A DNA stretch of 27,527 nt from a virus. The stretch is taken from positions 1-27,527 of IMG/VR virus record IMGVR_UViG_3300042389_000136; one strand, 5' to 3'. Under the pieces are notes generated by a model. It saw only the letters and a program-made list of their open reading frames with translations. It was not told the DNA's origin and did not search any database. Made by a program: the position numbers and the translations under genes. How positions within the stretch are numbered: position 1 is the first letter of the stretch; each line of letters opens with the position of its first letter. Below are positions 15,407-18,664 of this stretch, in pieces.

Positions 15407-15434
15407 GCTAGGGCGGTATTTCTACCGCCCTAGC
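15407..15434 (-). terminator. perfect 12-bp GAAA-tetraloop hairpin between ssb and dnaE
   Basis: GCTAGGGCGGTA (15434-15423) and TACCGCCCTAGC (15418-15407) pair perfectly around a GAAA tetraloop on the minus-strand RNA. No U-run follows: the next bases are ACCATTT and then the dnaE AGGAG. It could be a U-less attenuating terminator, an mRNA stabiliser for the abundant SSB transcript, or a processing site. Lowering polymerase relative to SSB expression is an inference. Confidence 0.65.
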
Positions 15435-16116: not shown

Positions 16117-16164
16117 AATGTATATCTCCTAAGTGTATTGGGCTATAGGATGCCCTGTATTTCT

Positions 16165-16173
16165 ATTATAGCA
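16165..16173 (-). promoter_or_regulatory. extended -10 promoter TGCTATAAT at the primase gene end
   Basis: The minus strand reads TGCTATAAT (extended -10). The primase stop TAA (16168-16166) lies inside the box. A leader of about 45 bases follows, with a small GGGC/GCCC hairpin (16155-16140), then AGGAG and the SSB ATG. It gives SSB its own transcript, as expected for an abundant protein. No clear -35 is seen. Confidence 0.6.
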
Positions 16174-17122
16174 TTCGATATTCGTAGTCTGCAAGGGCAT
16201 TTTCGATACAAGTTCTAATTTGTTCTTCTGTCATGTCGCCCACATCTTTTGCGTTGTTTGGATAAAGCATATCATTATTATAGTGTGCCCACAAGACTTC
16301 TTTTGTTTTAAGTGTATTAGCAATAGTTTTACCAAGTTCCCTGCCTGCTTGATCTGCGTCAGTCATAACAATCACCTTGGTAAAGTTTCTATTAATGTTT
16401 TCCAAATTAATCTTAGACATCGACCCACCCAATGTTGCAATGACATTGGGATAGCCTGCCTGGTGGACTCTAATCGCGTCAAACGACGACTCTACTACAA
16501 TAACTGTGCTACTAGTTCTCCTAGCACGATGAATGTTAAACATCGTCTTATTCCTAGGAAGTCCAGTAGAATTCTTAAATGACTTACCCTCTACCGATCT
16601 GCCAACTAAGCCTACAGGAATTCCATCTGGTGAGTGTACGGGAACAATAACCATATCCTGGCTTGCAGAGTATCCTAGTTTAAAATGATCAATTGATTCA
16701 TCATTTATCCCACGACCATTTAAGTATTCTCTAGACCTATCATTTATCTGAGAATGTAAGCGATCTAAGACACTCTGATCGAAGTCGGCGTACTCAGGCT
16801 TGTCATCCAGAATTTCGCTTAGTTCATCCTCAAAGTTATTTGCTGCCTCTTGCTGGGCAGACATAATAAATCTTAAAGCCTCAAATTCGTTTCGCTTAGT
16901 TAGATTCTTTACCAATTCTACAATAGTCCCGCGAGCCTCACATGATGGATTGAAGCATAGGTACAACCCCTTCTGATGGCTTACTGAAAATGACGGGGTG
17001 TGTCGGTTCCCGTGGAATGGGCATAGGCATAGAAAGTCATTAGAAGTCTCACTAACAACTTGCAGGCCAAGTTGCCTAACTATTGCTCGCATATGCGAGG
17101 GGCTGTAGGTTTCCAAAAGCAT
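16166..17122 (-). CDS. DnaG-type primase (CHC2 zinc finger plus TOPRIM)
   Basis: This 318-residue primase has an N-terminal CHC2 zinc finger with C34, H37, C56 and C61 (CPFHGNRHTPSFSV...LYLCFNPSCEARG). The TOPRIM core has E211 (VIVVESSFDA) and D255-x-D257 (VIVMTDADQAGRELG) for metal-dependent RNA primer synthesis. It is short next to bacterial DnaG (about 580-600), lacking the C-terminal helicase-binding domain, so it may contact the DnaB-like helicase differently. ATG at 17122, with GGAAAG upstream, 8 bases after the preceding gene. The downstream promoter overlaps its stop codon. Confidence 0.92.
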   Translation of the reverse strand: MLLETYSPSHMRAIVRQLGLQVVSETSNDFLCLCPFHGNRHTPSFSVSHQKGLYLCFNPSCEARGTIVELVKNLTKRNEFEALRFIMSAQQEAANNFEDELSEILDDKPEYADFDQSVLDRLHSQINDRSREYLNGRGINDESIDHFKLGYSASQDMVIVPVHSPDGIPVGLVGRSVEGKSFKNSTGLPRNKTMFNIHRARRTSSTVIVVESSFDAIRVHQAGYPNVIATLGGSMSKINLENINRNFTKVIVMTDADQAGRELGKTIANTLKTKEVLWAHYNNDMLYPNNAKDVGDMTEEQIRTCIENALADYEYRML

Positions 17123-17130
17123 TGCTTTCC

Positions 17131-17409
17131 TTATTGTTTGGGTATTAAATTTTGCCCAGAGAAGCCCTCATATAGATAGGACTTCTTTTTACCAACATAG
17201 ACTCCATACACAACGATCTCAAATGCATATGTATCATTAGGTTCATCATAGTCTAAGGAAAATTGTATGTCAAGATCAAGTATCGGAATGTAACCCTGAG
17301 ATCTCATATCACTTTCTATAAGGTTCTCGTATTGTTTTCTTAATCTGGGTATGGCAGAGTCATCATGTATTTGCCCCTGCATTCCGAAACTCTTTAATTT
17401 TTTATTCAT
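17131..17409 (-). CDS. small phage protein under a palindromic promoter
   Basis: From the ATG at 17409 (AGG about 9 bases upstream) the product has 92 residues; the longer reading to 17457 would run through the promoter palindrome and the helicase end. It is basic at the N-terminus (MNKKLKSFGMQGQIHDD), with a helix (PRLRKQYENLIESDMRSQ) and then beta-like strands (LDLDIQFSLDY, YAFEIVVYGVYVGKK). It resembles small proteins next to replication genes, but I recognise no family. Position and the dedicated promoter-operator suggest it starts the primase-SSB-polymerase transcript. Confidence 0.7.
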   Translation of the reverse strand: MNKKLKSFGMQGQIHDDSAIPRLRKQYENLIESDMRSQGYIPILDLDIQFSLDYDEPNDTYAFEIVVYGVYVGKKKSYLYEGFSGQNLIPKQ

Positions 17410-17417
17410 GATATATA

Positions 17418-17446
17418 CCTGTTTGATAATTATATCATCAAACAGG
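17418..17446 (-). promoter_or_regulatory. perfect inverted repeat around an extended -10 box (candidate operator-promoter)
   Basis: CCTGTTTGAT (17446-17437) and ATCAAACAGG (17427-17418) are perfect 10-bp arms with a 9-base spacer, GATATAATT. The spacer supplies TATAAT (17434-17429), and the extended -10 TGATATAAT spans 17437-17429. The helicase stop TGA (17440-17438) lies in one arm. A dimeric repressor bound here would cover the -10 and the predicted start near 17422. As RNA it would be a 10-bp stem, so a terminator for the helicase message is the alternative. Confidence 0.62.
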
Positions 17447-18664
17447 GATATCGTCATAGATCTCTTTTACAACTCCACGGTCAATATCCCAGTCAAGGTA
17501 GAACGCAAAGTTCGTACCATGACGATTCTTTCGTGATACAACTTCAATGATATTAGTGTCTGGGTGGCGGTGTACAGCCATAGCCATATCAGCATCGTAT
17601 TCAATGGCCTTTGACCACGCGACCTGTGATAGCAATGGTGGGGCATCCTGATCGGATACATCGTCCATTGTGGCTGCTGTAATGTCAATAACGGGAATAT
17701 TATTACGAACTGCTAGTAGTTTGAATTCCCGCGAAATGTTACGATTCCGCTCAACCTCAGAATTAGACTTCTTAGTGTCATTAAACAACTGGTGATAATC
17801 CAAGATAACAAGGTCGGGGCGATGCTGATCGATTTTACCCTGGACCGTCTGTGGAGTAACTTCATTTGTTCCCTCGTTAGATACTAGAATAAAACTATTC
17901 TTGTCATCAAAGCGCTTCTTTGCCCAATGATGGAAGTCATCAATATTGATATTGCCACGGGAAAAGTCTGAGGCTCTGAACATACCGCTACCAAGCATGG
18001 TATAAATTCGGTCACGCATATTCTCTGGACTCATCTCTAGAGATACAATCATAGGCTTGAAGCCCTGCTCCCAAGCCTTGCACGCTAGATAAGAGGTAAG
18101 CCATGTCTTTCCGCGTCCAGGCCATCCGATAGCAACAATAAGGTGTCCTGGGGCCATGCCAGTAGGATATGCAAGGTCTAGGGCAGTAAACCCAGTTTTA
18201 ATTCCTGGGCTGCCTCCCATGACTGCTGATCTCTCCTGGACGGCAATAATATGCTTCTCAGCCAATTCATAGTCGGTCAGGTCAACATCTCGCACATTAC
18301 TGGTAAGGCGAGATAGGCTAGCAATCTCTGACTGCATATCAGCCAGAACTCGGGATGCAGCATTATCTTTAAGAGAGGTGCCGCTCTTCATTAGAAGGTT
18401 CCGCATACGGGCAGCCAGATATTCATTCTTCAGTTGATCAAGGTAGTAGCCAGTCTCCGCAGTTACATTTACTGGCTCAAAGTCGCGGAACTTTTCCTGT
18501 AATACATTTACCTCAGGAACAGACTTAAACTTGTAATAATAAGATTTAAGACCCTCCCAAACGTCCTTGTGTGACTGAAAAACCTCATCAACATTATCTG
18601 CGAGAATGGTAGAAATATCCTTATTCTTGCAGACTGAAGTGATTACTGCTGCCTCTGTGTTCAA
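17438..18664 (-). CDS. dnaB: DnaB-type replicative helicase
   Basis: This 408-residue hexameric helicase has a short N-terminal domain (about 1-130), a linker, and a RecA-like motor: Walker A GWPGRGKT (180-187), catalytic E210 in IVSLEMSPENM, Walker B LVILDYHQL (D289), then AWSKAIEYDADMAM and SRKNRHGTNFAF, which matches the family's arginine-finger region. It unwinds 5'-3' at the fork, powering the phage replisome with the primase and polymerase. The TTG start at 18664 overlaps the previous TGA (TTGA). It is shorter than E. coli DnaB (471), mostly in the N-terminal domain. Its stop lies inside the promoter palindrome. Confidence 0.93.
   Translation of the reverse strand: MNTEAAVITSVCKNKDISTILADNVDEVFQSHKDVWEGLKSYYYKFKSVPEVNVLQEKFRDFEPVNVTAETGYYLDQLKNEYLAARMRNLLMKSGTSLKDNAASRVLADMQSEIASLSRLTSNVRDVDLTDYELAEKHIIAVQERSAVMGGSPGIKTGFTALDLAYPTGMAPGHLIVAIGWPGRGKTWLTSYLACKAWEQGFKPMIVSLEMSPENMRDRIYTMLGSGMFRASDFSRGNINIDDFHHWAKKRFDDKNSFILVSNEGTNEVTPQTVQGKIDQHRPDLVILDYHQLFNDTKKSNSEVERNRNISREFKLLAVRNNIPVIDITAATMDDVSDQDAPPLLSQVAWSKAIEYDADMAMAVHRHPDTNIIEVVSRKNRHGTNFAFYLDWDIDRGVVKEIYDDIPV

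Follow-up and report, generated by a model that had tools for sequence, protein, structure and literature searches.

Computational evidence for a promoter nested in a start-hiding RNA hairpin at a phage helicase-primase junction

Introduction

What does an inverted repeat do when it is centered on a promoter element? We analyzed a 27.5-kb phage fragment (IMG/VR record IMGVR_UViG_3300042389_000136, positions 1 to 27,527; this whole stretch of DNA is called the window here), in which two perfectly complementary 10-bp arms surround a TATAAT box at the end of a helicase gene. An earlier note interpreted this symmetry as the operator of a dimeric repressor, placed to block the promoter of the primase-SSB-polymerase genes, and offered a terminator hairpin as the alternative. 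Here, we compare these readings with others that act through the RNA.

The inverted repeat and its gene setting

The minus strand of the window carries genes for a helicase, a small ORF, a primase, SSB and the alpha subunit of DNA polymerase III. The DnaB-like replicative helicase gene (17438..18664) lies upstream of the repeat, and the 92-codon small ORF (17131..17409), which matches phrog_17515 (function unknown), is followed directly by the DNA primase gene (16166..17122). ORFs upstream are tightly packed. The PHROG match begins at the Met of ATG 17409-17407. A longer version of the small ORF proposed by the ORF caller begins at 17457, which is an unlikely start because the PHROG profile begins at residue 17. 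The small protein is conserved between helicase and primase, and its alignment with 23 relatives shows G39-Y40 and L44-D45 among the invariant residues. Its predicted structure is confident (pLDDT 92). We found one viral protein of the same fold, and searches gave no useful sequence match and no informative fold match among solved structures (PDB). The distant relatives of the window are Streptomyces phages.

The perfect dyad, CCTGTTTGAT-N9-ATCAAACAGG at 17418-17446, is present exactly as the earlier note described. It occurs once in the whole record, the exact half-site has no other copy in the window, as the note had also stated, and no exact copy of the dyad was found in the viral contigs scanned. 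Perfect 10-bp arms alone are weak evidence, because 38 of 100 shuffled versions of the window contain at least one such repeat (spacer 3-20). The repeat is longer than first reported, with imperfect 18-bp arms at 17413-17430 and 17434-17451 that are 89% complementary. This dyad ranks first among the inverted repeats of the window, and its score of 13 was matched in only one of 100 shuffled windows. The minus-strand RNA has a predicted folding energy of -17.5 kcal/mol (z = -6). The 5' arm of the RNA hairpin (17434..17451) holds the reported arm 17437-17446 and the helicase stop codon, and the 3' arm in transcript sense (17413..17430) holds the reported arm 17418-17427 and an SD-like CAGG. The dyad has no Rfam match above the gathering score, and the only Rfam matches of the window are four minus-strand tRNA genes (Gly, Gln, Pro, Ile) at 1-2924.

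A strong stem at the end of a gene could be an intrinsic terminator or attenuator. However, no T-run follows the hairpin on either strand, and the window scan called no terminator-like site near 17.4 kb, making the terminator hairpin of the earlier note hardly credible.

The predicted promoter and the start region of the small ORF

An extended -10 element, TGA-TATAAT (17429..17437, minus strand), forms the center of the dyad. The TATAAT box occupies 17434-17429, 3 nt after the helicase stop TGA (17440-17438). A consensus scan adds a weak -35-like hexamer, ATGACG (17452..17457, minus strand), across a 17-nt spacer, for 10/12 matches in all; this hexamer sits in helicase codons and its conservation is therefore not informative. 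The spacing from the -10 element predicts that transcription starts about 7 nt downstream, at 17421..17423. The ATG of the small ORF lies 19 nt past TATAAT and is preceded by a Shine-Dalgarno-like CAGGTA (17416..17421) within the 3' arm. This is a modest SD, with an anti-SD duplex of -3.9 kcal/mol. CAGGTA is paired in the predicted fold of read-through RNA, and its computed unpaired probability is 0.20 in that RNA versus 0.80 in promoter-initiated RNA.

Two observations support the promoter proposed in the earlier note: 73 distinct relatives in which a start lies downstream retain TATAAT at the helicase junction, and these phages carry the same extended -10 at the starts of other genes too. 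Its assignment to the primase-SSB-polymerase genes needs amendment, because the first gene downstream is the small ORF rather than the primase itself. Since the primase gene lies directly behind the small ORF, regulation at this site may also affect primase.

Predicted masking of the start codon

We calculated the free energy required to open the start region of the small ORF in read-through RNA and in RNA that starts 7 nt after TATAAT. As controls, the 40 nt upstream were shuffled or swapped in from other clusters. The window's own start needs 14.9 kcal/mol to open in read-through RNA and 0.5 kcal/mol in promoter-initiated RNA, and the short promoter-initiated transcript has no fold. Shuffled upstream sides average 5.8 kcal/mol (p = 0.005), and the window is among the strongest cases of masking that we obtained.

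We then applied the calculation to related phages. From four helicase scans we obtained 291 junctions, of which 146 are distinct. TATAAT is found near the helicase stop in 78 of the 146, and a usable start lies downstream in 73 of these. In many of the remaining junctions, the next ORF runs into the end of the helicase gene, and both TATAAT and hairpin are absent. For the 60 distinct leadered junctions, the median opening cost is 12.6 kcal/mol in read-through RNA, 4.6 in RNA from the gene's own promoter and 8.9 with shuffled upstream sequence. Masking reaches p ≤ 0.05 in the shuffle test at 39 of these 60 junctions and in 18 of 29 cluster representatives, with the other 11 not significant. In 28 of 29 clusters, masking by the native upstream side exceeds the average obtained with swapped sides (Wilcoxon p = 9e-8). 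When the 5 nt next to TATAAT were held fixed, 11 of the 29 clusters still gave p ≤ 0.05 (binomial p = 7e-8) and 26 beat the swap mean.

Junctions with a short spacer, in which the start lies 6-10 nt from TATAAT and there is no SD, showed significant masking in 1 of 13 cases. The gap in absolute cost between leadered and short-spacer junctions is partly built in, as the tested region is shorter in the latter, so the p-values are the fair comparison. Masking is not significant in two near relatives that have a leader (L002 and L012).

Arm turnover in related phages

Close relatives with helicases 95-97% identical to that of the window are split, some having the hairpin and others lacking it. One of them (L007) retains a 7-bp version with a single compensated change (CCTGTCT/AGACAGG). 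Eight others (L003-L006 and L008-L011; helicase 95-96% identical) have TATAAT about 10 nt before the start, no SD and no clear repeat. Distant relatives carry wholly different arms at the same place: AACTGTCCTA/TAGGACAGTT in L037, TCCTGAT/ATCAGGA in L065 and GCCTTACTGTCTA/TAGACAGTAAGGC in L272. Across the 73 distinct junctions, arm sequences turn over while TATAAT stays. Where the downstream gene has a leader, the retained feature is, as predicted from these sequences, RNA pairing of the stretch before the -10 box with the SD and start of the next gene.

These comparisons bear on the operator reading, in which the dyad is the binding site of a dimeric phage repressor that blocks the -10 box. 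The symmetry about the -10 box is what such a site would have, an inner palindrome (CTTGATATAATTATCAAG) is strongly conserved in one set of relatives (the L052-like group), and a related Streptomyces phage has a MerR-like HTH gene upstream of its helicase. However, arms from different clusters are unrelated in sequence, and it is the ability to pair with the next gene's start region that is kept instead. The eight close relatives described above retain the promoter without the dyad, the very loss that the earlier note had said would count against an operator. The lack of a second exact half-site in the window and the absence of the exact dyad from the scanned viral contigs also count against an operator, and pairing of this kind is missing at the other TATAAT promoters that these phages have. 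Because the arms turn over and vanish in close relatives, we rejected the operator as the main reading; it is improbable, and the dyad is probably not a repressor site.

A hairpin between the helicase and the primase cluster could also act in mRNA processing or stability, for example as an RNase III-type site, and a stable intercistronic stem in a polycistronic RNA is what that would look like. This function predicts neither a start region in the 3' side, nor a central -10 box, nor loss of the stem where the SD is absent, and we regard it as very improbable.

We also considered whether selection acts on RNA or on DNA. Pair counting in 24 sequences (the L052-like group and its nearest neighbors) detected no covariation beyond shuffles (82.3% vs 82.0%). 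In these sequences, the inner stem and the pairing with the start codon hardly vary, and the outer stem is frequently interrupted. Sense RNA is more stable than antisense RNA in 23 of 29 cases before correction, with p = 0.18 after shuffle correction for composition; that test therefore does not prove that selection acts on the RNA and not on the DNA. The inner stem may have a role at the DNA level. The L052-like group also has a conserved TATGnAAT block at the -35 position, -23 to -16 before TATAAT (L052:4230-4262 and similar junctions), although its conservation there was partly selected by the search pattern used. A few other promoters of these phages carry TATG at -23 as well. The block could be an activator box, a -35 variant, or a partner that pairs with the start codon in CATG.

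Possible translational coupling to the helicase

A start-masking hairpin could instead couple translation of the small gene to that of the helicase, hiding the start until a ribosome that finishes the helicase opens the stem and leaving the internal promoter a secondary role. The helicase stop lies inside the 5' arm in the window, so a terminating ribosome would open the hairpin and let read-through mRNA be translated. Placing a ribosome at the stop lowers the computed opening cost of the window from 14.9 to 0.5 kcal/mol. The window and 12 other leadered junctions have TATAAT beginning at most 12 nt from the helicase stop. With a ribosome placed there, the median cost in these close-stop junctions falls from 9.8 to 1.5. 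Moreover, the small gene of Streptomyces phages Mildred21 and MeganTheeKilla overlaps the helicase by one base or starts 3 bases after it, a coupled layout. In contrast, TATAAT lies more than 12 nt after the stop in 47 of the 60 leadered junctions (median 25), and a ribosome halted there mostly leaves the hairpin intact, with the median cost going from 13.0 to 10.9. Coupling also leaves unexplained the conserved -10 box and those relatives in which the hairpin is absent and the start lies 6-10 nt after TATAAT. Because the ribosome at the stop opens the hairpin of the window and mostly not those of the 47, coupling is a live rival and the main one for the window's own copy, but it fits the group less well and is unlikely overall.

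Proposed mechanism

From these computations, we propose that the junction carries a promoter nested in a start-hiding RNA hairpin, such that read-through mRNA is masked and mRNA from the internal promoter is translated; we give this reading a probability of about 0.55. Read-through mRNA from the helicase side would contain both arms and fold, masking the SD and start codon of phrog_17515. RNA polymerase starting at the internal extended -10 would begin inside the hairpin, about 7 nt past TATAAT, and the resulting mRNA would lack the 5' arm, be unable to fold and be translated. The small gene would thus be made mainly when its own promoter is on, uncoupled from the helicase. The repeat, the conserved -10 box, arm turnover with retained start masking and the large accessibility gap between the two transcripts are the computed support for this proposal. 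We infer the existence of the read-through mRNA, the activity of the promoter, its start position, and timing or dosage as the purpose.

The hairpin-free junctions raise a broader and more tentative possibility. Translation from the gene's own promoter alone might be reached by two interchangeable routes, an SD-masking hairpin or a leaderless or near-leaderless, SD-less start that is poorly used internally. Phages would have switched between these routes while keeping the -10 box, and promoter-gated translation would be the selected property of the helicase-primase junction. This proposal is doubtful enough that we offer it only as a suggestion.

Comparison with known switches

In the transposons IS10 and IS50, read-in transcripts fold and mask the transposase start, and the element's own transcript is translated; unlike the junction described here, these are mobile elements in which the arrangement serves as protection from outside transcription. 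In T4, each of the genes e, soc and 49 has a start-masking hairpin that carries a late promoter within its 5' strand (PMC3014915). For e and I-TevI, function has been shown experimentally: early read-through transcripts fold and are untranslated, and transcripts from the late promoter, which lack the 5' strand, are translated (PMC3014915, PMC2988022). The window shares with gene e a promoter inside or just upstream of the hairpin, and the same division is predicted, with long upstream transcripts folding to hide the SD and start and short ones lacking the 5' strand being translated. In both cases, related phages retain the arrangement while sequences vary. A stem pairs the SD and start with upstream sequence, and the promoter, with its -10 in the loop and inner stem and its start site predicted, would give a transcript without the 5' strand. 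The swap tests indicate that the architecture is kept as sequence changes, with no pairwise covariation in the L052-like group and its neighbors. Because these structural features of the T4 switch are present, we describe the element as one that would work like it. Unlike gene e, which has a phage late promoter and belongs to the late genes, the window has what looks like a host-type extended -10 in a replication cluster; and unlike gene e and I-TevI, which are experimentally proven, the window element is predicted.

The hairpin of I-TevI sequesters the RBS only on upstream-initiated transcripts, and similar arrangements have been reported for I-TevII, I-TevIII, segB and Aeh1 mobE (PMC2988022). 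An RBS-sequestering hairpin specific to upstream-initiated transcripts is also predicted here. In contrast to these mobile homing endonucleases, phrog_17515 is a conserved small protein whose gene occupies a fixed position between those of helicase and primase. No published report of such a switch in actinophages emerged from a limited literature search. If our reading is correct, the T4 promoter-in-hairpin switch extends to a large uncultivated phage group that is related to Streptomyces phages, where it sits at a junction of replication genes and uses a host-type promoter. The group would then supply numerous naturally occurring versions of a single switch, some of them hairpin-free and near-leaderless. 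The case also cautions that symmetry around a -10 box need not mean a repressor site.

Other TATAAT promoters

As a check of specificity, we ran the masking test on 74 TATAAT sites that precede genes, taken from the window and three near relatives; five gave p ≤ 0.05, and three of these are helicase junctions. The helicase junction of G010 is of the short-spacer kind, and its masking is not significant. The extended TG is present at about half of the 74 sites, and a few show TTGAC at the spacing of a -35 element, motifs that would be consistent with a host-type promoter. Several TATAAT sites lie exactly 6 nt from ATG. This spacing from -10 to ATG has been reported for leaderless genes in bacteria and is common in Actinobacteria (PMC3160421), and relatives with exactly 6 nt between TATAAT and ATG fit leaderless starts.

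Two further hairpins were observed on the minus strand. The SSB leader (16118-16170) has a TATAAT box upstream of SSB and, about 10 nt beyond it, a short hairpin. Its stem varies with compensation across relatives (GGGC/GCCC, GGAC/GTCC, GAGC/GCTC, GATGG/CCATC, GACGG/CCGTC), its loop often resembles ATCCTATA, and it is likely a conserved 5'-end RNA element. Between SSB and the polymerase gene, a perfect 12-bp stem, GCTAGGGCGGTA, with a GAAA loop (15407-15434) lies just ahead of the polymerase SD and has no T-run.
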